Source: Microthrixaceae bacterium
GTDB taxonomy: Bacteria > Actinomycetota > Acidimicrobiia > Acidimicrobiales > Microtrichaceae
Length of the DNA stretch: 64,000 nt
Assembly: GCA_020027475.1 (NCBI GenBank)
Contig: JAHRAZ010000128.1
Coordinates: forward strand, 1-64,000
Reading direction: 5' to 3'
This document shows, piece after piece, positions 148 to 11,848 of the stretch. The notes under the pieces were generated by a model. That model saw only the letters and a list, made by a program, of their open reading frames with translations. It ran no database searches and was not told the origin of the DNA. Made by a program: the position numbers and the translations under genes. Each line of letters begins with the position of its first letter. Within the stretch, counting starts at the first letter, position 1.

Positions 148-2850
148 TCATGGGGCGCCCGACCCAGATGCGTACTCCTCCACCACCTGCTCGATCTCCT
201 CGACAAGCATGTGCGCGAACTCGGCATCGGAGAGAGGTGAGATGAAGTTCGTCTCCTTTTCGAGCACCGCCACGACCTCGGGGAGCTCCGCACCGAGAGT
301 GCGGAGAAGGTCCCGTTCACCCGCTGTCAGGCGAGCCAGCGCCTCCCTCACGATGTCTTCGCGTCCTCTCTGGGCGAACCCACCCACCACCTGAAGGATC
401 GTCACACCGGCGAGGAAGGTCATCCCGCCTTCGCTGGACAGGAGCCTGATCGATTCGAGCGCACTTTCCCATCGGGCCTGCTGATCACCCAATCCATCGT
501 GCAGGGCAACCTGGAGTTGTCGGGCCACCCCACGGGCCACCTTGTTGGCGGTGGGACTCGACTTCGCTGAAGATTCCCGCGTGATTCGGAGTGCTCCCTG
601 CAGGTCCCCTTCATGCAGGAACACCTGGGCCTGATACCAGTAGACGAGCGCGATGGTCGACGGGCTGCGCGTACGGGCAGCCGCCAGCATCGCCTCCTCA
701 GCCAGCGGACGGGCTTGGGAAGGATCGTGGATCGATGTGGCCCACGCACCGTGGCCGAGCGCTCTGGCCAGTTCCCAGTCCGAACCGCTTCGACGGGCTT
801 CCACGATCATGGCGGCCGACCAATCGTGCGCTTCCAGGAGGCGACCGGACCACAACGCGATCTGTGTTCGTGCGTAATGCGGGAGGATGCTCAGGTCGAC
901 CTTCGGGCCTTCCGCGGCCATGATGCCCCGATTGGCAAGAGCAATTCCGCCCTCCCAATCACGGCTCTGCGCCCGACCCATGGCCGCGAGACCGGCCACC
1001 GCAGCCGCCTTCGGATGTTCCCACGCGCCTTTCATGTTGATTGTGCGCTCACAACGCGAAAATACCTCCAGCCGTTGGAGTTCGTAAGCAAGGTGGAACA
1101 TCGTGGCCACGATTCGCATGGCCGAATCCAGATCCTCGTGAAGGATGCTTCGGGCACTGGCCGTGGCCAGATTGTCGTACTCCGAAACCAGCCGCGCACT
1201 GGCTTCAATCTCGCGAGGACCCTGAACCCATTCCAACATCTGTTCTGAGAAGGACACGTAGTAGTCGGTGTGGTTCTGCGTGTACAGATCCTTCAGTCCG
1301 GCCCGGCGCAAACGGGCGGAGCCGTAGGCCCGCAAGATCTCCAACAGGTGGTACCTGGTCTTCTCTGATCCCGTGTCCACGACCACCAGAGAACGATCAA
1401 CCAGAGAGTTCACGAGGTCAAAGACCGACTCCCGCCCAACGCCATCCCCCGCGCAGACCTCTTCCACCGCCTCCAGGGTGAATCCGCCCGCAAAGACGGA
1501 AAGCCTGTCAAAGAGAACCTGCTCTTGCAGATCGCAAAGGTGATATGACCAGTCCACCGCCGACTCAAGCGTCCGCTGCCTCCCTGTGGCGCCGACTCGA
1601 CCTCCGGTCAGCAATCGAAACCGCTCGCCCAACCGATCATCGATCTCCGCAGGTGACATCGACCGGGTGCGGGCCGCGGCCAGTTCGATGGCGAGTGGCA
1701 AACCATCGAGGTGCGTACAGATCGACTCGATCGAATCCATCGATTCGGAGCCGAACTCTGCTCCGTTGCGGGCGGCGTGAGCTCGGTCCAGAAACAACTT
1801 CACGGCCGGCGAATTGTTCCCGCCGCTGGTCAAAGGCTCAACACGAACGGCTCGTTCCCCATGTACACCCAAGGGAGTTCGGCTCGTGGCGATGATGGAG
1901 GTCATCGGACAATTCCGACTAATCCGGTCGACCAGGGCGGAAACTGCTGACAGCAAGTGCTCACAATTGTCGAGAACGATCAAGCAGCGTTTGTGCAGCA
2001 GTCTCTCCAGAAGGAGGTCCTCGGGCGCATTCTCACCTTGCCCCAGTCCGAGGTCGGCCGCCAGCACTGCCGCAACTGAGCCTGGGTCGTTGGCCGGCGC
2101 CAGCTCACAGAACCAGACACCGTCCGGATACTTGTGGAGAAGCTGCGAACCGACAAAGAGCGCCAGTCGCGTCTTGCCGACACCTCCGGTTCCAATGAGG
2201 GTGACCAGCCGGTGTTCACGCAGCACAGTCGAGATCTGCTGGACGTCCCCGTCGCGGCCTACAAAGCTCGACGCGTTCGTGGGCAGGTTGGTCCGGAGAT
2301 AATCGAGCGCACGCAACGACCGTCGATCAGCGGGTAGATCGGGATGGCGGATCCGGAACACACGCATGCTCCCCCGAACATCCCTCAGATGCAGTCCACC
2401 CATGTCCTCGGCCTCGACATCATCCGGAAGTTCTGGAGGACAATCCTCGTCGGCGGACAGGAGAATCTGCCCGCCGACACATGCCGCCAACAGTCGGGCG
2501 GCGCGATTGTGGGACCCGCCGAAGTAGTCACCATCTCGGGATTCAACACGTCCCGTGTAGACCGCCACTCGAATCTTCAGGCCGTCAAAGGATTCCGACA
2601 CGATCCTCTGGGTGTTCACAGCAGCCTGCACTGCAACGGCAGGTTCATCGAAAACCGAGGCAAACCCATCCCCAGTGTGTTTGAACACACTGCCGCCGGC
2701 CTCAGAAATCGCCTCCTGCACGACCAAATCGTGGCGTTCCAGAAGGGCTGACATCGACTCGGCATCAGCTTCCCAAGCGCGCGTCGAACCCTCGATATCC
2801 GTAACCAGAAGAGTCGTCTCAACCCAATTTCGACCACTCACCGCGAGCAC
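148..2850 (-). CDS. Class III nucleotide cyclase / NB-ARC ATPase / TPR regulator
   Basis: A 900-residue multidomain protein. Residues about 10-180 form a class III adenylate/guanylate cyclase homology domain, with the metal-binding Asp motifs VTDIEGSTRAWE and FKHTGDGF and the later GGSHNRAARLL region. An NB-ARC/AAA-like ATPase follows, with Walker A GTGGVGKTRL near residue 218 and LIVLDNCEHLL as Walker B; the rest is helical, TPR-like. This architecture is common in Actinobacteria as a cytoplasmic signalling or regulatory protein. No DNA-binding domain is obvious at the C terminus, so the output is unknown. It stands alone; the next gene upstream (metY) ends about 200 bp away. The start is the first ATG; a later start is possible but would cut into the cyclase fold. 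Confidence 0.85.
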   Translation of the reverse strand: MLAVSGRNWVETTLLVTDIEGSTRAWEADAESMSALLERHDLVVQEAISEAGGSVFKHTGDGFASVFDEPAVAVQAAVNTQRIVSESFDGLKIRVAVYTGRVESRDGDYFGGSHNRAARLLAACVGGQILLSADEDCPPELPDDVEAEDMGGLHLRDVRGSMRVFRIRHPDLPADRRSLRALDYLRTNLPTNASSFVGRDGDVQQISTVLREHRLVTLIGTGGVGKTRLALFVGSQLLHKYPDGVWFCELAPANDPGSVAAVLAADLGLGQGENAPEDLLLERLLHKRCLIVLDNCEHLLSAVSALVDRISRNCPMTSIIATSRTPLGVHGERAVRVEPLTSGGNNSPAVKLFLDRAHAARNGAEFGSESMDSIESICTHLDGLPLAIELAAARTRSMSPAEIDDRLGERFRLLTGGRVGATGRQRTLESAVDWSYHLCDLQEQVLFDRLSVFAGGFTLEAVEEVCAGDGVGRESVFDLVNSLVDRSLVVVDTGSEKTRYHLLEILRAYGSARLRRAGLKDLYTQNHTDYYVSFSEQMLEWVQGPREIEASARLVSEYDNLATASARSILHEDLDSAMRIVATMFHLAYELQRLEVFSRCERTINMKGAWEHPKAAAVAGLAAMGRAQSRDWEGGIALANRGIMAAEGPKVDLSILPHYARTQIALWSGRLLEAHDWSAAMIVEARRSGSDWELARALGHGAWATSIHDPSQARPLAEEAMLAAARTRSPSTIALVYWYQAQVFLHEGDLQGALRITRESSAKSSPTANKVARGVARQLQVALHDGLGDQQARWESALESIRLLSSEGGMTFLAGVTILQVVGGFAQRGREDIVREALARLTAGERDLLRTLGAELPEVVAVLEKETNFISPLSDAEFAHMLVEEIEQVVEEYASGSGAP

Positions 2851-3048
2851 TCCGCTGAAATCATCGTGGATCTGCGGGAGCTGCGGCCCGATACCGGACT
2901 CGCTCCCCGGAAACCCTGTCTCAGGGCAAGGCTAAGAGCACCAACCCAAAAGCGGTCAGAATCACCGGCGGACGTCCACGCGCGCCGATGGACCGGATTG
3001 TCCCCGACCCATCACTGCAACTTCCGGGTCAGCCAGTCGGCCGCAGCG

Positions 3049-4359
3049 CTACTTCGCCGCAGCGAAGCCGAGTTCCAGGTCGGCGATGATGTCATCGATG
3101 GTCTCGAGACCAACGGACAAACGCACCATTCCAGGTTCGACTCCGGTGGAGGACTGCTCTTCCTCGGTCAATTGGCTGTGGGTGGTGGATGCCGGGTGGA
3201 TCACGAGGCTTCGGACATCTCCGATATTGGCGACGTGGCTGTGAAGGACCAAGGCCTCCACGAACTTCGTTCCCGCTTCCTTGCCACCCTTGATGTTGAA
3301 CGCCGGCACGGAACCGAAACCAACTCCGCCGGTCAGTTCCAGGGCCCGGGAGTTCCACTCGGAACTCGCCAGGGAGGAGTGCGCCACCGACTCGACCTGG
3401 TCATGACCTTCGAGATACTCGGCCACCACGTTTGCGTTGGCGTTGTGGCGTTCCATGCGCAGGCTCAGAGTCTCCAGGCCCTGCAGGAGCAGGAAGGAGT
3501 TGAACGGGCTTATCGCGGGTCCGAGATCGCGAAGCAGTTGCACTCGGGCCTTGATGATGTACGAACCAGCACCCAGTGCGGGCCAGTAGGACAGGCCGTG
3601 ATAACTCGGGTCGGGCTCGGTGAACATCGGGTGTTTGCCGGAAGCTCCGAAATCGAAGTTGCCGGAGTCGACGATCACTCCACCGATACTCGTGCCGTGA
3701 CCTCCGATGAACTTGGTGGCCGAGTGAACAATGATGTCTGCGCCGTGCTCAAAGGGACGCAGGACATATGGCGTAGCCACGGTGTTGTCCACGATCAACG
3801 GCACGCCCGCCTCATGTGCAACCCCGGCAACTCCTGCGATGTCCATCACGTCGTTCTTGGGATTGCCAATCGTCTCTCCGTAGAACGCCTTGGTGTTCTC
3901 ACGGACGGCACCGCGCCACTCCTCGAGGTTGTCCGGGTCCTGGATGAAAGTGGTCTCGATTCCCATCTTCGGCAGCGTGTGGTGCAGCAGGTTGTACGTG
4001 CCGCCATAAAGCGCGGCAGAGGAAACAATGTGGTCACCCGCCTCGGCAAGGTTCAGAATCGCGATGGTTTCTGCGGCCTGTCCGGAGGCCACTACCAGGG
4101 CTCCGGGGAGACCAACAGCAGTGGTGACGCCTCCCTCAAGGCTCGACATGCGAGCTTCCACGACTCCCTGAGTCGGATTCATGATGCGGGTGTAGATGTT
4201 CCCCATCTCGGACAACCCGAACAGGTTCGCTGCATGTTCGGTATCGCGGAAGCTGTACGAGGTTGTCTGATAGATCGGCACAGCGCGGGCGCTGGTTTCC
4301 TCATCCGGCTCATGACCCTCATGGATCTGGCGGGTCTCGAATCCCCAATCGGTACTCAT
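3049..4359 (-). CDS. metY: O-acetylhomoserine sulfhydrylase (aminocarboxypropyltransferase)
   Basis: 436 residues of the Cys/Met metabolism PLP-dependent family. It should make homocysteine from O-acetylhomoserine and sulfide in the cytoplasm. Visible marks are YTRIMNPT near the N terminus, the VASGQAAE phosphate-binding segment, the PLP Asp in [10 protein letters not shown], and the Schiff-base Lys in [11 protein letters not shown]. Length (about 430) and the insert after FIGGHGT match MetY rather than the shorter MetB/MetC. The start is well supported by GAGGAGAG 8 nt upstream of the ATG. I looked for a SAM riboswitch in the 250-bp upstream region and saw no convincing one. Confidence 0.93.
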
Positions 4360-4566
4360 CTGTGTCTCTCCTCATCGGCACGCGGAACACGCAGTCTGGC
4401 ACGCGACAATCGCGACGGTGACCACGAACGCGGGATTCAATAGGTTTCACGCGGCTGACATCTTGGACATCGGATCACCGCGCTCACCACCAGCGTGCAG
4501 GCGGCCACCAACAGCAACATCTCCACTCTGAGTCCGGGCACGAACGCTGGGCCGACTGCTTCGCGG

Positions 4567-4610: not shown

Positions 4611-5369
4611 TCAGGTCAGGGAATATCCGCCGTCCACACAGAGGTTCTGGCCCGTGATGAACCGGGCACCCGGGCCGGCAAGGAACAAAACGGCACCACT
4701 GACGTCATCGGGTTGACCCCAACGAGCCATCGGGACCTTTGCCAGCTCCGGCCCCTCGATCTCTTCCATCCCCTTCATCGGAGCCGTGAGATTTGTTTCC
4801 ACCAGCCCCGGCGCCACGGAATTCACCCGAATCCCGTCACCTGCCCATGTGAGCGCGAGCTGTCTCGTGAGGTGCAACAGAGCTGCCTTGGCAGTCGCAT
4901 AACCCGGCACGATTTTCGCCGGACGAAAAGCCGACATGCTGATCACATTGATCACGTTGCCTCCGCCAAGCATCCCGCTGGACTTCAGCCGGGGAAACAG
5001 ACCACGAGTCAGTCGGTGTGCTCCCATGAGGTTCATCTCAAGCGATGCATCAAAACCCTCGGGCGTAGCCTCGTCGAGACCATCCGGGAAGTTTCCGCCG
5101 GCGTTGTTGATCAGCACATCAAGCGAATCCAGCGACTCCACAAGTGTTTCGATGCCGTCGGAATCCCTCATCTCCAGCGACTCATACCGGAATGCAGCCA
5201 GGCGATCCGCATCCTCATAGTCGGTTGAGGAAACACGACGTCCGGTGATCATGACCTCTGCCCCGGCCCCGCAAAACGCCTCTGCAATCCCCAACCCGAT
5301 CCCGCTGGTTCCTCCGGTCACCAATACCTTGGTGTCGCTGAAGTCGAACACTGGCTCGCTGGCACTCAT
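4611..5369 (-). CDS. Short-chain dehydrogenase/reductase (SDR)
   Basis: 252 residues of the classical SDR family, NAD(P)-dependent oxidation or reduction of an alcohol/ketone pair. The cofactor motif TGGTSGIG is at residues 19-26, NNAG near 91, the catalytic Ser in NVISMSAF, and YATAK carries the active-site Tyr and Lys. The C-terminal end has the usual FITGQNLCVDGGY. Its ATG overlaps the stop of the upstream sulfotransferase (ATGA, 5366-5369), so it is probably translated with it. The context suggests it acts on the alcohol or ketone that its neighbours sulfate or desulfate; the substrate is not shown by the sequence. Confidence 0.9.
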   Translation of the reverse strand: MSASEPVFDFSDTKVLVTGGTSGIGLGIAEAFCGAGAEVMITGRRVSSTDYEDADRLAAFRYESLEMRDSDGIETLVESLDSLDVLINNAGGNFPDGLDEATPEGFDASLEMNLMGAHRLTRGLFPRLKSSGMLGGGNVINVISMSAFRPAKIVPGYATAKAALLHLTRQLALTWAGDGIRVNSVAPGLVETNLTAPMKGMEEIEGPELAKVPMARWGQPDDVSGAVLFLAGPGARFITGQNLCVDGGYSLT

Positions 5370-6700
5370 TCGCCCATCCCTTCTGCCAACACATCGAAGC
5401 GCGACATGTAGTCGCCGTATCGCGACCGCAATTCGTCCCGGTCGATTCCGAAGTCCTCTTTCAAGTCCGTGACCACCCGACCATGTTTGCCCCGGCGGTT
5501 GGCGTTGAGATACGCCTCCAGTTGGCCCCTTGCGTCCGCAGTCATTTCGATGTCGGCCACCTCGTACAACCTCTCCACTGTTGCCAGATCGTCGGCCATG
5601 AATTCGTGGAACAGTACGTCCACTGATTGATCGGCCGGCACTGAATCTCGATCCCGGACGCAGGCGCGGAGGAGCACCTGCACGCGGTCAGCCCAGTATT
5701 GCGCCACAGCGGGTGGATTCGGCCGGGTTCGCCGCAATCGATCACCGTAGGTGCTCATCGTGGCTGACGAGGCGACCACCGAAGTTGGATCTCGGTGTGT
5801 CAGCGCCACCGTTGCATCAGGAAACGTGTTGATCAGCACGGGTAGCTGTTCGAGATGTTGAGGGCATTTGAGTACCCATCGACGAGGTTCTCCAAGGCTG
5901 GGCGCACGATGTGGATTCGGATTCACGCGGTCCTGCCACTGGAGGATCTTGAGGACGTCCCGCATGTACTCGTAGTGCGGTTTCTGATCGGTACAGAGGT
6001 AGTAATCGCGCCACAGGGGTGCATGGAACAGCCACTCGAACACATAACCGGCAATGTCGTTGGCCATGAGTTCGACCTCTTCGTGGATGTGCTCCGGAGT
6101 CATTGCGTGCATGGCTTTGAGCAGCGGCAACAACGAATCCGTCTTCTCCCAGTCCTTCCGAGCCCGGGTGAAGCGCGGATCTTCGGAATCAACCACCGAC
6201 TCTTCGCCTGAAAAAGGAACTGGCTCCCGACTCTCCCAATACGACAACGAGCGAAATCGCGAGTCGGCGGCCATGAGATTCAGCAGATGGGTCGTGCCCG
6301 AGCGCGGGAGACCCGCCACGATCAGAGGAGCCCTGATCACCTCGTCGGAAATCTCGGGATGACGTTGCAGCAGATCTTCGATGAGCGCCCGATTGGACAT
6401 GTACCGAACCAGATCGAGCCACACGGCAACACGACCTGCAGCGTGCATGCCAGTGTCGGCCTCCGCCGCGGAACAAACCACCGCCAGTCGCTCGATCGCA
6501 TCCTCATTTCCGAAGAGGCCCGACCGATTGACGTCAAAGGTGGGGTCGTGCCTGCCCATCCGCTCCTTGGCGGCCCGGGTTATGGCACCGGTTGTGAACT
6601 CAACCGGGAAACCGGTGGCAGCTTTGCGCAGCGAGATCAACTCGGGGCTGAGTTGAGGATCACCAAGGTCAGTGATCCGGATGATCTCGGGGTCAGGCAT
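5366..6700 (-). CDS. PAPS-dependent sulfotransferase family protein
   Basis: 444 residues. The 5'-phosphosulfate-binding loop is visible as VAGLPRSGTTHLLNLM, about residue 130, and the 3'-phosphate region as ALTHRDPTSVVASSATM, about residue 288. These fit the Sulfotransfer_3 group, which moves sulfate from PAPS to hydroxyl groups. The long N-terminal region and a YWESREP segment are typical of actinobacterial members. It overlaps by 8 nt with the preceding metallo-hydrolase gene (6693-6700) and by 4 nt with the following SDR, forming a three-gene operon. The acceptor is unknown; a hydroxylated lipid or sterol is possible but only inferred. Confidence 0.85.
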   Translation of the reverse strand: MPDPEIIRITDLGDPQLSPELISLRKAATGFPVEFTTGAITRAAKERMGRHDPTFDVNRSGLFGNEDAIERLAVVCSAAEADTGMHAAGRVAVWLDLVRYMSNRALIEDLLQRHPEISDEVIRAPLIVAGLPRSGTTHLLNLMAADSRFRSLSYWESREPVPFSGEESVVDSEDPRFTRARKDWEKTDSLLPLLKAMHAMTPEHIHEEVELMANDIAGYVFEWLFHAPLWRDYYLCTDQKPHYEYMRDVLKILQWQDRVNPNPHRAPSLGEPRRWVLKCPQHLEQLPVLINTFPDATVALTHRDPTSVVASSATMSTYGDRLRRTRPNPPAVAQYWADRVQVLLRACVRDRDSVPADQSVDVLFHEFMADDLATVERLYEVADIEMTADARGQLEAYLNANRRGKHGRVVTDLKEDFGIDRDELRSRYGDYMSRFDVLAEGMGE

Positions 6701-8132
6701 CGGAGGCCCCTGTATTCAGATCAGCGTCTGTGTCCGGACCAGCAGCCGTGTCCAGGCGAGCAGTGAGTTCCGTCACCTGGTTGTCCAGCCAGCTGGACAA
6801 CCAGAAATTCGCACTGTCTTCGGACAACCTCCGGTGTGCTTCGGAAGAAACGGCGACGGCCCCGCGATGTCCGGACTCACCCGACAGAATCACATCGCAG
6901 AGGTGTATCGCGGCAACCGGATCGCCCTGAGCCAACAACTCATCGGCTCGCGCTACCACCGGATCGGGTCCGCCCACCAGCGCAACGATCTCGGAATCGA
7001 CACTCTGGCGAGGGGACCCGTAAAGCTCGGTGGTGGACTCATGCTTGAACCAACCGGCATATGTTTCCCAGATCGCCCGGACGTCCCAGGAGACCTTGCC
7101 GTAACCTTCGCCCACCTTCAGCTCGGGAGGCAGCTCCAGCGAATTCATTGTTTCCCACAGGGTGCGGCCGCTGTTCATGGCTTCCACCGTCTGGTCATGC
7201 ACCCACAAAGTCGCGTCGCGCACACGCTGCAACTCGCCGGCGATGTAGTCCGCACCTTCAATGGGGCCATGGTGGCCCGGCAGGAGCACCGCTGGACGAA
7301 GTGCCTTGAGGCGATCAACGGAGTCGACGAACTTGAGGGCATCACGATGCCGGTCGCCGCGCAACGTGACCAGGTTCGGAATATGACCCGGAAGCGCCGA
7401 CAGAAGGTTACCCACCAGAGCGATACGTTCATCCGGAAGCCACACCACAAGCGAATCGGTTGTCTCGCCGCCAGGTGTGGAGATCAACTCGAGGCTCAGG
7501 TCGCCGATGGTGAGTTCAAGGCTGTCCTCAAAAGTGAGGGTCGGTTGCGCAATGGCCTGATCGGGCAGCGAACCGAACTCGTCCAGGATTCGAAGAGCCC
7601 CATCTCGAACCGTCCTCTGGAAGGCGAAGTTCGATCGATCTATTCGGTAGCTGTAGATGCGCTCGTCGTCTCGTTGGTGAGCAGCGTTACCCGCCTGGGC
7701 GATCACCATGGTGTCGGGATCCTTCAGATGATCCACTCCACCGACGTGATCGACGTGCCCTTGGGTGAAGATGACCGCCGCCACCGGTGAGTCGTCGACC
7801 GAGTCGAAGTTGCGCTTGTGAACCGGCGCCTCGAAGCCCATTCCAGTATTGATGATCACCCGCCCTTCAGACGTGGTGATCAGATACGAATGCGACAATC
7901 CTGTGGAAACCCAGATCCGATCGTGGACCTGATGTGCCTGTTCCATGTCTGCCGGCAGCATCTCGAAAGCACTCGGTCGCCATTGATGCAGTGGCGCATC
8001 CGTGCGCGGATCCCACCAGTTGTCATCATCCACGTCAGCCCCCAGTCGGAATTCGTTGCCGCGTTGTTCAACGAATCGAACCTTAGAGCCTTCCCGGTTC
8101 CTCCAGCGGAGACGGCTCGGGCGCGCCACCAT
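6693..8132 (-). CDS. Alkylsulfatase-like metallo-beta-lactamase-fold hydrolase
   Basis: About 479 residues. An MBL fold is followed by an alkylsulfatase dimerisation-type domain (about residues 330-460, with YAGWFKHESTTELYG and WLDNQVTELTARLD). HNLxTLRG, a mark of SdsA1-type alkylsulfatases, is matched by PNLVTLRGDRHRD. The metal motif is unusual: TQGHVDH where the family has THxHxDH, so the first His is Gln, and VGN stands where the SdsA1 type has AEN. The start is uncertain. The ATG at 8132 lies inside a 13-bp dyad shared with the divergent dehydrogenase. A GTG at 8033, preceded by GGGGG, would leave a 100-bp promoter region but drop the SKVRFVEQRG segment. First gene of the sulfatase-sulfotransferase-SDR operon. 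Confidence 0.8.
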   Translation of the reverse strand: MVARPSRLRWRNREGSKVRFVEQRGNEFRLGADVDDDNWWDPRTDAPLHQWRPSAFEMLPADMEQAHQVHDRIWVSTGLSHSYLITTSEGRVIINTGMGFEAPVHKRNFDSVDDSPVAAVIFTQGHVDHVGGVDHLKDPDTMVIAQAGNAAHQRDDERIYSYRIDRSNFAFQRTVRDGALRILDEFGSLPDQAIAQPTLTFEDSLELTIGDLSLELISTPGGETTDSLVVWLPDERIALVGNLLSALPGHIPNLVTLRGDRHRDALKFVDSVDRLKALRPAVLLPGHHGPIEGADYIAGELQRVRDATLWVHDQTVEAMNSGRTLWETMNSLELPPELKVGEGYGKVSWDVRAIWETYAGWFKHESTTELYGSPRQSVDSEIVALVGGPDPVVARADELLAQGDPVAAIHLCDVILSGESGHRGAVAVSSEAHRRLSEDSANFWLSSWLDNQVTELTARLDTAAGPDTDADLNTGASDA

Positions 8133-8139
8133 GGTGACC

Positions 8140-9144
8140 ATGAAGCAGGTTCGAATCCATGACTCCAACGACGTCCGCCTGGATGACATCGCTGAGCCGA
8201 AACCCGGAGACGACGACGTGGTCGTGCGGGTGTCATCGTGCGGGATCTGCGGAACCGACCTCAAGTACATAGCCGCGGGAGGACTCGTTGGCCCCACCGC
8301 AATTCCGATGCCGCTCGGCCATGAACTCTCGGGCGAGGTCGAATTCGTGGGTGACAACGTGGAGGACGTGAGTCTCGGCGATCGTATGATCGTGCATCCC
8401 GGCGATGACGAAGTTGGACGCATCGGCAATGGCGGACCAGAAGGTGCGCTCACCACTCACCTGCTCGTCAGGGATGCTGCTCGTGGTGGACGACTCATGG
8501 CGATCCCTGAGCAGATGCCGATGGAAGTGGCTGCTCTCGCGGAGCCGATGGCAGTCGGATTGAACGCCGCCAACCAAGCCGAGGTTCGTGAGGGTGGAAC
8601 GGTCGCGGTGTTCGGAGCCGGACCGATCGGCCTGTCGGCCATCGCCGCCTCCAGCGTGCGCGGGGCCCGAGACATCGTGGCAATCGACATGGCACCGGAA
8701 CGCCTCGAGGTCGCCAGCAAGATGGGCGCGCACGAGACGGTCCTGGCAGATGAAGATGTGTGGAATGTGCTGCGGGAACGCCACGGTTCGCAAGGCCACG
8801 TGATGGGTCCGACGGCGGAAACCAACTCATTCATCGAAGCCACAGGTTCGCCATCGGTCATCAGGTCGGTGATCGATCACTCGGCACCGGGTGGAATCCT
8901 CGCGGTGGTCGCCCTTCATTTCGAGGAAATCCCCACGTCGTTCCTTTCGATCATGATGAAGGAACTCACCATCCGCGGGGCCATGGAATACCCGAAACGA
9001 TTCGAGGATGCGATCGACCTGTTGTCGCAGGTGGATGTTTCGGCAATGATCACCCATCGATTCGATCTGCAGGATTGGCCGAAAGTGCTCGAAACGGTCC
9101 TGGGGCCACGCACCTATGCCAAGGTGATGGTCAACTGCCAGTAG
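8140..9144 (+). CDS. Zinc-dependent medium-chain alcohol dehydrogenase
   Basis: 334 residues of the MDR superfamily, NAD(P)-dependent alcohol or polyol oxidation. Catalytic zinc ligands are seen in SSCGICGTDLK and in PLGHELSGEVEF; the Rossmann motif is VFGAGPIGLSA. The usual structural-zinc loop with four cysteines is absent: the segment after VHPGDDEVGRIGNGG carries none. I chose the ATG at 8140 (MKQVRIHD), which fits the family N terminus; an ATG at 8131 is also in frame. It is divergent from the alkylsulfatase-like gene and could oxidise the alcohol released by it, which is inference from position only. Confidence 0.88.
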   Translation: MKQVRIHDSNDVRLDDIAEPKPGDDDVVVRVSSCGICGTDLKYIAAGGLVGPTAIPMPLGHELSGEVEFVGDNVEDVSLGDRMIVHPGDDEVGRIGNGGPEGALTTHLLVRDAARGGRLMAIPEQMPMEVAALAEPMAVGLNAANQAEVREGGTVAVFGAGPIGLSAIAASSVRGARDIVAIDMAPERLEVASKMGAHETVLADEDVWNVLRERHGSQGHVMGPTAETNSFIEATGSPSVIRSVIDHSAPGGILAVVALHFEEIPTSFLSIMMKELTIRGAMEYPKRFEDAIDLLSQVDVSAMITHRFDLQDWPKVLETVLGPRTYAKVMVNCQ

Positions 9145-10015
9145 GCGCCGGCTCGCGCTGAACCCCGAGTGCAGCGCCCGGCACAGGATCCGAGTACCAA
9201 CCCTCCAGTAGCTCCGTGTCGTCGATGTCCCATGGATGGAAACCTGGCCTCAGGTAGGCAATCAGCAACTTGATCTGACGTTTCATGATCTTGGCCTGCA
9301 CGGCCCTCGCCTCGTCACGATCGGCCTTTGTGATCGGCAGCGGATCTTCCTTCATCATGCGCCTGACGATCTTCACCATCGGGATCCCCAGAGTGGCAAC
9401 TGCTGTGGCCATGGCCACCATTCGTGTCACGTACCCACCGCCGACCCTGTGGAACAGATCAAAGGCCACGGACTTGTGCTCGAGTTCCTCCGCCGCGTGC
9501 CAGCGCCAGAACTCGAGCATCTGTGGATCCATCTCATGGATGGCCTCCGGATCATCGAGAAGCGTGTGCGCCCCCACCGCTGTGAGGTGCTCGGAGAACA
9601 CAGTGACACCCAGCTGGATCTTGCGGGGAAGCCGACGCTGCAACTTGGCGAACACCGAAGCTGCGTATGACTCCTCCCGGGCAACATCGATTCCGAAATT
9701 CGCAATCGTGGCGTTGTAGACGTGGTGGGCCCGGCCGTGCAAATCTTCCTGCTGGACGAACGCCTTGATCAGTCCCAGTACTTCGGGATCCGTGACGCGG
9801 TCCCGGTAGTACCGGACCGACTGAATGAAGAACTGTTCACCGGGCGGAATCAGAATCGAGAAGGCATTCTCGATATGGGTGAGGACGGGATTGGACAGGT
9901 TCCAGTACTGCGGAATGCTCTCCACATCGGTGAAGTCGAATTCCCGAGGTTGCATCGCAACCCCGTCTGGCATCTCCCTTGAACTCACCGGTTCGTGAAC
10001 TTCTCTGAAACTCAT
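9131..10015 (-). CDS. PF10118-family predicted metal-dependent hydrolase
   Basis: 294 residues. Repeated Glu/His motifs are seen: FVQQEDLHGRAHHVYN near residue 90 and HAAEELEHKSVAFDLFHR near 165. They resemble a diiron four-helix arrangement and define the PF10118 family, annotated as 'metal-dependent hydrolase' with no proven reaction that I know. The start is the ATG at 10015, with GGAGG about 12 nt upstream. Its 3' end overlaps the dehydrogenase end by 14 bp, tail to tail. A role in lipid or hydroxy-compound oxidation is plausible from the neighbours but not shown. Confidence 0.8.
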   Translation of the reverse strand: MSFREVHEPVSSREMPDGVAMQPREFDFTDVESIPQYWNLSNPVLTHIENAFSILIPPGEQFFIQSVRYYRDRVTDPEVLGLIKAFVQQEDLHGRAHHVYNATIANFGIDVAREESYAASVFAKLQRRLPRKIQLGVTVFSEHLTAVGAHTLLDDPEAIHEMDPQMLEFWRWHAAEELEHKSVAFDLFHRVGGGYVTRMVAMATAVATLGIPMVKIVRRMMKEDPLPITKADRDEARAVQAKIMKRQIKLLIAYLRPGFHPWDIDDTELLEGWYSDPVPGAALGVQREPAPTGS

Positions 10016-10159: not shown

Positions 10160-10211
10160 GGAGCGCGTAGCCCTCCGGCTCCACCGGCGCGAAGGACCCG
10201 CCGATTCAGTG

Positions 10212-10253
10212 CGATCGGTCCGCCGTTGCAACACTGCACCGGCGGACCGATCG
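10212..10253. promoter_or_regulatory. 14-bp perfect inverted repeat over the amidohydrolase start
   Basis: cgatcggtccgccg (10212-10225) and cggcggaccgatcg (10240-10253) are perfect complements with a 14-nt spacer. The proposed TTG start (10226) begins the spacer, and the alternative ATG (10259) follows the right arm by 5 nt. As RNA it would hide the initiation region; as DNA it could be an operator. Part of the right arm also codes for the conserved GGPIVT residues. Confidence 0.65.
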
Positions 10254-11848
10254 TCACCATGGCTGCCGTGGCGGCGCCCACGGTGACAGAAGCCGTGGCC
10301 ATCCACAATGGGCGCATTGTTGCGGTCGGCGATGCCCGAGATGTTCTCGACAAGCGCAGAAGCGCCGATGAGGTGACCGACCTTGCGGGCAAGACCCTCA
10401 CCCCGGGTCTCATCGAACCGCACACACATCCCGACCTGTCTGCACAACTCTATTCATGGGTGGATATTTCGGGGTTCACGCATTCGTCGGTCAGTGGGGT
10501 CCAGGCAGCGCTGTCGGAAGCCGCCGCCGACCGAGCCCCGGGGGAATGGATCTTCGGATTCGGTCTGGATCCGATGCTCACACCGGATCTCGGGATCTGG
10601 GATCGCCACCGACTCGACGCCATCAGCACCGAACACCCGATCGTGGTGATGCTCCAGTCGATGCACACGATGTACGCAAACTCAGCCGCCCTCGCAGCGG
10701 CTGGCATCGACGAGAACACACCGGACCCTCCTGGTGGAGGTCGCTACGCAAGGGACGCCGCTGGATACCCAACCGGTCGGATCGCCGAGCAATCAGCAAT
10801 GCTGCCATTGGTCATCTTCGACATGCCCACGCGGGAGAAGATGCTGGAAAGACTCGCCAATCAGTCCAACCTTTATCGCGAGGTCGGCATCACAACAGTG
10901 GGCGTGGCCGGCTCAGTCTTCCCCACCGACGTGTTTCGTGAAACCTTCGAGCGGCCGGACTCGCCCCTGCGGTCGGTGCTGTATCTGCAGCACAGCTCCC
11001 CCGACTTGTCGGGGACCTCTCCTGGCGACCAGCGGGCAAACGGATCCGATCGATTTCGAGTTCACGGTGTGAAACTCTGGTACGACGGCTCCCCGTACAC
11101 CGGAACGATGCTCATGGAGGAGCCTTATCTGGCTTCTGATCTCTGCTGTTGCACTCTGGGAATCCCGGAGGGAACAGTTGGTCAGGCAAACTTCGAACCA
11201 GCAGAGATGACCGAGCTCTTGCGCTCGTTCGCTGAAGATGGCTGGCAGGTATTGACTCATTCCCAGGGAGACAGAAGCTCCCGGGAGATGCTCGACTTCT
11301 ACGAACAAGTACTCACCGATGTTTCGCCCACCGATCATCGTTGGAGGCTCGAGCACTGTGCCCTCACCACAACGGATGACCTGGCCAGAGCCAAGCGCCT
11401 TGGCGTCTCTCCAAGCTTTCACGTGGACCACATCCGTCACTATGGACCCGAGCTCGAAGCGGAGATCATCGGCAAACAGCGCTCCGACAAGCTCATGCCG
11501 ATCGGAACCGCTGTCGAACAGGGTCACCGGATCAGCCTGCACGCGGATTCACCGATGTATCCACCATCGCCACTCAAGCTGATGGAGACCGCCGTAACAC
11601 GCCGCACGAGGCTCGGAACCCGAATCGCACCCGAGCAGGCCATTTCGGCGGAACGGGCGTTGTCAGCGGTGACTTCCGAAGCCGCTTGGCAACTTCAGCT
11701 GGACGATGAGGTCGGATCGATCCAGGTTGGCAAACGGGCAGACTTCACGGTTCTGGAACGCAACCCGCTCGACGCACCCGGAGCCGAGCTGGGCAACATC
11801 GAAGTCATCGAGACCTGGCTCGACGGAGAACCGACCGCGCCGCTGTAG
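10226..11848 (+). CDS. YtcJ-like amidohydrolase (Amidohydro_3)
   Basis: About 540 residues of the amidohydrolase superfamily. The N-terminal small beta domain (CTGGPIVTM...EAVAIHNGRIVAVGDA) leads to the metal-site HxH in LIEPHTHPDL. Later come a HSQGD segment near residue 345, WRLEHCAL, and SLHADSPMYPP near 430. The C terminus returns to the beta domain (VGSIQVGKRADFTVLERNPL). It should hydrolyse an amide or a cyclic C-N bond; the substrate is unknown. I placed the start at the TTG 10226 because CTGGPIVTM is a conserved part of the family N terminus; ATG 10259 would lose it. A strong inverted repeat covers the start. Confidence 0.85.
   Translation: MQHCTGGPIVTMAAVAAPTVTEAVAIHNGRIVAVGDARDVLDKRRSADEVTDLAGKTLTPGLIEPHTHPDLSAQLYSWVDISGFTHSSVSGVQAALSEAAADRAPGEWIFGFGLDPMLTPDLGIWDRHRLDAISTEHPIVVMLQSMHTMYANSAALAAAGIDENTPDPPGGGRYARDAAGYPTGRIAEQSAMLPLVIFDMPTREKMLERLANQSNLYREVGITTVGVAGSVFPTDVFRETFERPDSPLRSVLYLQHSSPDLSGTSPGDQRANGSDRFRVHGVKLWYDGSPYTGTMLMEEPYLASDLCCCTLGIPEGTVGQANFEPAEMTELLRSFAEDGWQVLTHSQGDRSSREMLDFYEQVLTDVSPTDHRWRLEHCALTTTDDLARAKRLGVSPSFHVDHIRHYGPELEAEIIGKQRSDKLMPIGTAVEQGHRISLHADSPMYPPSPLKLMETAVTRRTRLGTRIAPEQAISAERALSAVTSEAAWQLQLDDEVGSIQVGKRADFTVLERNPLDAPGAELGNIEVIETWLDGEPTAPL

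Follow-up and report, generated by a model that had tools for sequence, protein, structure and literature searches.

A sulfotransferase and a remodelled alkylsulfatase-like protein are coupled in a gene cassette found in Microthrixaceae and other bacteria

Why would a bacterium keep, in overlapping genes, an enzyme that adds sulfate to a hydroxyl group and a relative of the enzymes that take it off? The question is raised by a locus in the window, by which we mean the whole stretch of 64,000 nucleotides analyzed here (positions 1 to 64,000 of contig JAHRAZ010000128.1, from a Microthrixaceae bacterium), where the gene for a sulfotransferase (STF) of the type that uses 3'-phosphoadenosine 5'-phosphosulfate (PAPS) overlaps the gene for a metallo-beta-lactamase-fold (MBL) protein related to alkylsulfatases. 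We found that this MBL belongs to a clade, here called TQ-MBL, in which two ligands of the di-zinc site are replaced, and that TQ-MBL and STF are coupled, as neighbors or within one genome. The pair may activate a hydroxylated small molecule by sulfation, after which the remodelled MBL would use up the ester by breaking its C-O bond, a reading to which we give a probability of roughly 0.45. The features of the locus are as follows.

4611..5369, minus strand: gene for a classical short-chain dehydrogenase/reductase (SDR), 252 aa, PF13561
5366..6700, minus strand: gene for the PAPS-type STF, 444 aa, PF13469 (Sulfotransfer_3)
6693..8033, minus strand: gene for the MBL (TQ-MBL), about 446 aa from a likely GTG, the longest open reading frame (ORF) running to 8456, PF14863 and PF00753
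8034..8130, no strand: intergenic stretch between the MBL and ADH genes, read from the sequence, 97 bp with the MBL start taken at the GTG at 8033
8131..9144, plus strand: gene for a zinc-type medium-chain alcohol dehydrogenase (ADH), divergent from the operon, PF00107 and PF08240

The four ORFs, their families, the divergent ADH gene and the overlaps of 8 nt between MBL and STF (6693-6700) and 4 nt between STF and SDR (5366-5369), both read directly from the sequence, are all as an earlier sequence-only reading had described them. Every Pfam match exceeded its cut-off: adh_short_C2 with 163.6 bits, Sulfotransfer_3 with 115.9 (cut-off 27), Alkyl_sulf_dimr with 61.3 (cut-off 26) and Lactamase_B with 55.1 for the MBL, and ADH_zinc_N with 67.4 and ADH_N with 55.6 for the ADH. 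Among the NCBIfam matches listed for the four proteins, no family reached its cut-off (for the SDR, among the best 25 of 231). The host is a draft genome of 2.84 Mb in 149 contigs. Among named records its nearest relative is 'Actinomycetes bacterium CSMAG_2939' (locus L032), with a 92% identical MBL. The MBL probably starts at the GTG at 8033, because the leader upstream of it shifts frame in this sister genome.

Neighborhoods were counted in loci brought in by MBL searches, with duplicates of at least 99% identity merged (213 matches became 131). The neighborhood HMMs were built from the same loci and their score lines were set by eye after the lists had been seen; the STF line of 140 bits also lets in STFs of about 29-32% identity, and the home-made gene caller missed genes in some loci. 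Two entries without a readable motif, L143 and L210 at 462, both with an STF near, were not counted as TQ, and the alignment excludes a short fragment (L210 at 2), so that 110 TQ loci were counted and 109 were aligned. Within 6 kb of the 110 MBLs with the TQxHxDH motif there was an STF in 82, an SDR in 72, an ADH in 44 and an oxidoreductase of the unrelated Gfo/Idh/MocA type (GFO) in 17; the 54 loci flanked by 5 kb or more on each side gave 42, 43, 22 and 11, respectively. The same distance around 19 relatives with the ordinary THxHxDH (TH) motif contained no STF, and an ADH in three. An STF lay within 1.3 kb at 64 of the 87 TQ loci with enough flank versus 0 of 17 TH relatives, and this difference, together with the genome co-occurrence given below, led us to reject chance neighbors as an explanation.

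All four genes were present at 50 loci, and at 44 of these the whole set shares a strand. The loci show 12 arrangements when cassettes with ADH, with GFO or with additional SDRs are treated as distinct. Because gene order varies and gene content stays constant, the linkage appears to be functional and not merely inherited. The sequence-only reading had staked its case on a link of the four families that relatives would share; when this was checked, the neighborhood was found to be kept in relatives and the link to be conserved. The slot that ADH occupies in the window is filled by GFO in other lineages, the two never occurring together at the 61 loci with a filled slot. On quick trees, ADH and GFO switched at least 5 times along the MBL tree, and the presence of STF changed at least 7-8 times. 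Since two unrelated folds alternate in one slot, ADH and GFO most simply serve the same alcohol/ketone interconversion.

Within the family of the window's organism, a close MBL relative (46-92% identity, the window's own counted) was found in 18 of 33 genomes, sharply apart from paralogues of about 30%. The fetched flanks contained an STF at 17 of these 18 loci, and in the exception (L004, genome G013) the STF lies about 39 kb off on the same contig. At the 12 paralogue loci (L020-L031) neither an STF nor an ADH exceeded 60 bits, and two had an SDR of 32-33% identity.

The pairing was also seen at the level of whole genomes, for which STF lines of 534 and 577 bits were chosen after the lists had been seen. 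In a sample of 395 genomes from the window's class, 42 had TQ-MBL (the motif was read in every one), 39 had a cassette-type STF (at least 534 bits) and 38 had both. In 282 genomes of Myxococcota, the phylum of locus L033, the numbers were 45, 43 (at least 577 bits) and 41, G682 being left out of the count for its lack of a readable motif. Two TQ genomes, G400 in the class sample and G662 in the Myxococcota sample, have incomplete STFs of 391 bits each, that of G400 being cut by the contig end. At a looser STF line (E<=1e-110), the class sample gave 39 genomes with both, 3 with MBL only, 24 with STF only and 329 with neither, and the 24 STF-only genomes therefore point to a second STF subgroup that occurs without the MBL. 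For 28 TQ-MBL loci without an adjoining STF, an STF match at E<=1e-90 was present elsewhere in the genome in 26 (19 of 19, with best matches of 391-698 bits, and 7 of 9 in two test sets), and four of eight such loci that were fetched lie beside an SDR or ADH (L213, L217, L218 and L219), that is, they are split cassettes. In genome G616 the two proteins are fused in one ORF of 844 aa, an MBL match of 639 bits being followed by an STF match of 623 bits, with TQAHVDH and PRSGTTHL intact.

The cassette recurs in at least four major groups, with examples in Acidimicrobiia, Mycobacterium, Myxococcota/'Deltaproteobacteria', Binatia and sphingomonads. A scan of a genome collection gave 22 named loci, with titles of Myxococcota, Deltaproteobacteria, Proteobacteria, Binatia, Acidimicrobiia, Actinomycetes, Mycobacterium colombiense and uncultured bacteria. 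Wider MBL searches at E<=1e-80, a line that picks up TQ-MBL or its nearest ordinary-motif relatives, matched 45 of the 395 genomes of the window's class (42 with the TQ motif), 48 of the 282 Myxococcota genomes (45 TQ), 2 of 148 in the phylum of the Binatia genome (one TQ) and 12 of 201 in the family of M. colombiense, where all were TQ and an STF adjoined the MBL at the fetched locus in 12 of 12. Three sphingomonad plasmids carry TQ-MBL, again with an adjoining STF in all three; in Sphingobium sp. RAC03 the annotated order on one strand is SDR, zinc-binding dehydrogenase, alkyl sulfatase dimerization protein and sulfotransferase. The SDRs beside the sphingomonad MBLs score only 146-173 bits, below the line of 240 applied elsewhere. 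The genome of M. colombiense E1334 has four MBL matches at E<=1e-80, and its locus L051 (4969-15428) contains two TQ-MBL copies about 2 kb apart with a TrwC-relaxase/helicase-like gene nearby, so that a mobile element may carry the cassette here.

What kind of protein is the MBL? The best PDB folds for its AlphaFold2 model are alkylsulfatases, with Pisa1 (2yhe) at Z 29.5, rmsd 2.8 and 394 residues aligned; the matches include SdsAP, SdsA1 and YjcS, and the nine best are all alkylsulfatases or YjcS. The pLDDT of the model is 79.7 but falls below 50 at 232-240, where pocket residues lie, and we therefore argue no geometry from it. Residues were mapped from SdsAP by alignments with SdsA1 as a bridge (offset 23). 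In SdsAP (PMC5426288), Zn1 is bound by D196, H197, H367 and E322, and Zn2 by H192, H194, E303 and the bridging E322. The window MBL keeps D108, H109, H267, H106 and E203 at metal-ligand positions, but unlike SdsAP it has a glutamine (Q104) in the place of H192 and an asparagine (N222) in the place of the bridging E322 (ligands from PMC5426288), so that two di-zinc ligands are lost and the HxHxDH di-zinc motif becomes TQxHxDH.

With the type III alkylsulfatases (SdsA1, SdsAP, Pisa1, YjcS), TQ-MBL shares the fold together with the dimerisation domain (Z 29.5-24.9, with profile E values as low as 3e-36), the NxxTxRG segment and E203, H106, D108 and H109. It differs from them in its tight linkage to a sulfotransferase gene and in the lack of an SCP2-type C-terminal domain: Pfam at E<=0.001 detected none in the window MBL, where the dimerisation domain reaches residue 425 of 459. 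We rejected ordinary alkylsulfatase as the family assignment, given the absence of both the SCP2 domain and two di-zinc ligands; with these ligands lost, ordinary sulfate removal by the MBL is doubtful. A glutamine at the first histidine of HxHxDH also occurs in the GOB-type metallo-beta-lactamases, which have a mononuclear zinc site. GOB-18 (5k0w) is among the fold and profile matches of TQ-MBL, but the similarity is only distant, and GOB hydrolyses beta-lactams.

Since the TQ clade was picked by its motif, the presence of Q104 in 109 of 109 aligned TQ proteins shows only that the window's glutamine is no lone oddity. N222 was found in 109 of 109 as well, and N75 in 108 with one gap. The 19 TH relatives have D at 75, H at 104 and D or E at 222, none of them having N75, Q104 or N222, so the changes that mark the clade are D75N, H104Q and D/E222N; the fetched mycobacterial and sphingomonad TQ-MBLs likewise have N, Q and N. 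Other residues are invariant in all 109, namely H106, D108, H109, E203, N233, T236 and R238. T236 and R238 are kept in the 7 near TH relatives and replaced in 9 of the 12 far ones, and N233 is kept by all. N233, T236 and R238 match N307, T310 and R312 of SdsA1, among which we take N307 and R312 to be residues of the sulfate pocket. H267 is replaced by arginine in 24 of the 109 (one change on the tree) and also in two mycobacterial TQ-MBLs, and many of the H267R proteins lie within complete cassettes. The TQ motif has one origin on a quick tree, also when the signature columns are removed. On a plain reading of these sequences, the metal site of an ordinary di-zinc alkylsulfatase-like ancestor would have been neutralised around the time when its partnership with the STF began. 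A sister MBL group (L085, L181 and L183) has the ordinary motif THAHEDH and an adjoining related ADH, with no STF within 6 kb; at L085, acyl-CoA dehydrogenase and periplasmic-binding-protein genes come after MBL and ADH.

The fold of the window STF is that of mycobacterial STF1 (2zq5; Z 39.5, rmsd 2.8, 358 aligned, sequence E 3e-51) and STF9 (2z6v; Z 38.8, rmsd 2.6, 373 aligned, sequence E 2e-49), although it is only about 25% identical to them. Within the same genomes, the scores of cassette STFs are clearly separated from those of most other homologues. The motifs PRSGTTH and R303...S311 are invariant in 19 aligned relatives; PRSGTT and R303...S311 are presumably the PAPS-binding loops. PAPS supply is indicated by an adenosine 5'-phosphosulfate (APS) kinase in the window genome (222 bits). 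The Ser-Tyr-Lys catalytic residues of the SDR (S144, Y157, K161) and C37, H64, E65 and E138 of the ADH, which we assume to be catalytic zinc ligands, are each kept in at least 95% of 25 relatives, several of them partial.

From these data we infer the order of steps, the consumption of the sulfate ester by the MBL and the C-O cleavage. The STF would move sulfate from PAPS to a substrate hydroxyl, as its family and the APS kinase suggest. TQ-MBL would bind the resulting sulfate ester in its retained sulfate pocket and break the C-O bond, whereupon sulfate would depart; the product would be an alkene or enol (elimination) or an inverted or ring-closed compound (substitution), not the starting alcohol. 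The SDR and the zinc ADH or GFO would oxidise or reduce hydroxyl or keto groups, either before or after the sulfate steps.

Sulfate is placed on a hydroxyl as a leaving group by the sulfotransferase (ST) domains of the curacin and olefin-synthase systems, where the domain lies inside a polyketide synthase and is followed by a thioesterase. These domains (4gbm, 4gox) are among the fold matches of the cassette STF, which in contrast stands alone; neither a polyketide synthase nor a thioesterase was found among the 18 neighbor clusters of at least three loci, a lone 4HBT thioesterase-like neighbor lying at L094:3996-4787. We know of no sulfo-activation enzyme that is paired with an alkylsulfatase-related MBL. 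As in our proposal for the cassette, sulfate put on a hydroxyl by sorghum LGS1 is proposed (PMC8713700) to be a built-in leaving group. The curacin/olefin-synthase ST domains and LGS1 serve polyketide or strigolactone synthesis, whereas the cassette consists of separate enzymes with two dehydrogenases. For Pisa1, PMC3920027 describes C-O bond breakage by activated water with inversion, a histidine protonating the leaving sulfate. We favor sulfo-activation followed by C-O cleavage because of the STF fold and motifs, the APS kinase, the Pisa1 chemistry and the LGS1 precedent. As the sequence-only reading had supposed, no described system of this form turned up: open PMC text, with subscription papers outside the scope, yielded no account of a sulfotransferase/alkylsulfatase cassette.

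Several observations weigh against this proposal. No STF is near at 12 of the 54 TQ-MBL loci with flanks of 5 kb or more on each side. The TQ genomes G211, G374 and G192 of the class sample lack a cassette-type STF and have one of about 29-30% identity beside the MBL, and G257 has an STF, at a contig edge, without TQ-MBL. Among Myxococcota, the TQ genomes G480 and G531 have no STF at E<=1e-90, G526 has only a 32% identical STF beside its MBL (L117), and an STF without TQ-MBL occurs in G657 and in G500, where the MBL carries the ordinary motif. Moreover, the co-occurrence figures ignore shared ancestry, and the fusion was seen in one assembly only. H230 is present in 109 of 109 aligned TQ-MBLs but is alanine in two Sphingobium proteins and, therefore, cannot be a universal acid; for the acid histidine of Pisa1 we rely on a presumed residue number. 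With metal ligands lost, TQ-MBL could have no catalysis or carry out a non-sulfate reaction, and sodium dodecyl sulfate was not attacked by a short alkylsulfatase homologue that lacks the SCP2 domain (PMC6107682).

The metal-site changes would also suit an MBL that acts as a hydrolase or lyase on another bond (lactone, ester or ether) and makes or unmasks a hydroxyl, with the STF working last or in parallel and the sulfate ester as the product. The MBL fold hosts many hydrolases, and two loci, L100 and L167, have MBL, GFO and SDR without a nearby STF. We nevertheless consider this rather unlikely, given that T236 and R238, of presumed sulfate-pocket role, are invariant in the clade and kept in its near TH relatives but mostly replaced in far ones, that the nine best folds are alkylsulfatases or YjcS, and that an STF was found in trans for 26 of the 28 loci without an adjoining one.

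If the MBL were instead a catalytically weak or dead partner of the STF, a carrier of substrate or product or an allosteric subunit in a complex, the clade-wide D75N, H104Q and D/E222N changes, the H267R proteins and the fusion ORF would be accounted for. The seven residues invariant in all aligned TQ-MBLs, however, would seem to exceed the needs of a scaffold, which makes such a partner quite improbable.

The sequence-only reading had proposed a reversible sulfate mask, in which the MBL hydrolyses back the same ester that the STF makes, on a sterol or long-chain alcohol. The family names and the retained sulfate-pocket positions speak for a mask, and a PF00884 sulfatase gene is nearby in 3 of the 110 loci (L035, L045 and L046, two scanned and the third by homology). 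On the other hand, two di-zinc ligands are lost, the MBL and STF genes overlap and in G616 are fused, and the MBL has no signal-peptide-like start by a crude hydropathy proxy, with none of 108 N-terminal stretches of the matched region above 1.8. In view of the overlap, the fusion and the N-terminal stretches, a mask would amount to a futile cycle that burns PAPS, and we hold it to be as improbable as a dead partner. No evidence for a sterol or long-chain alcohol was found; the SCP2-type C-terminal domain, missing here in Pfam, is said in PMC6107682 to recruit hydrophobic substrates in alkylsulfatases. That the MBL opens sulfate esters from outside while the STF works on another intermediate of the pathway is very improbable: genes for a TonB receptor, for AMP-binding and MaoC proteins and for regulators give the Sphingobium surroundings a catabolic look, and the Mycobacterium copy has a cytochrome P450 nearby, both of which would fit, but the MBL start is not signal-peptide-like by the same crude test and no transporter occurs among the 18 neighbor clusters, in a set from which the gene caller missed some genes.

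Neighbor scans with HMM counts across the 110 TQ-MBL loci point to no single substrate. PhyH dioxygenases are near 17 loci, of which 12 also have GFO, a VOC protein near 23 and luciferase-like monooxygenases near 3. Clusters in three or four loci comprise protein kinase, TPR, O-acetylhomoserine sulfhydrylase (OAHS)-like, amidohydrolase 2, P450, 3-hydroxyisobutyrate-dehydrogenase-like, second SDR and beta-galactosidase proteins. The PhyH, VOC, luciferase-like, P450, TetR/IclR and AMP-binding/MaoC neighbors suggest that outside compounds are catabolised. A divergent VOC (Glyoxalase_4) gene lies just upstream of many L033-type cassettes (L033, L035, L041, L142, L147, L148 and others), some of which have a TetR gene upstream as well.

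In the window, a gene for a PF10118 'predicted metal-dependent hydrolase' (9131-10012, minus strand) has a convergent overlap of 14 nt with the 3' part of the ADH gene. This gene, the OAHS gene (3049-4359) and an amidohydrolase gene (10187-11848) were rejected as cassette members because matches above 60 bits among L001-L053 occurred only in the window genome and a same-genus sister; OAHS matches of 33-36% identity lie near a few MBL genes in other genomes. A 525-aa open frame antisense to the OAHS gene (2866-4443, plus strand) is probably a GC-rich shadow ORF. Farther off, a 900-aa protein (148-2850, minus strand) combines a weak guanylate-cyclase-like start (19.3 bits, cut-off 21.9) with an AAA/NB-ARC-like ATPase region (AAA_22, 30.2 bits, cut-off 27).

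It is possible, though somewhat doubtful, that TQ-MBL belongs to a new class of enzymes, acting as a lyase on sulfate esters or as an inverting transferase. It would have arisen from a di-zinc alkylsulfatase-like ancestor by amide replacement at metal-site residues and, with the STF, would remove, invert or cyclise at a hydroxyl-bearing carbon in at least four phyla. The idea is directly testable because the STF/TQ-MBL pair occurs in a named isolate, Sphingobium sp. RAC03. If it is true, genes whose annotation now reads only 'alkyl sulfatase dimerization domain-containing protein' or 'sulfotransferase' would acquire a shared function open to testing, sulfation-driven deoxygenation or inversion would be a pathway across at least four phyla, and bacteria would use sulfation as an active step in the metabolism of small molecules, not as a decoration.

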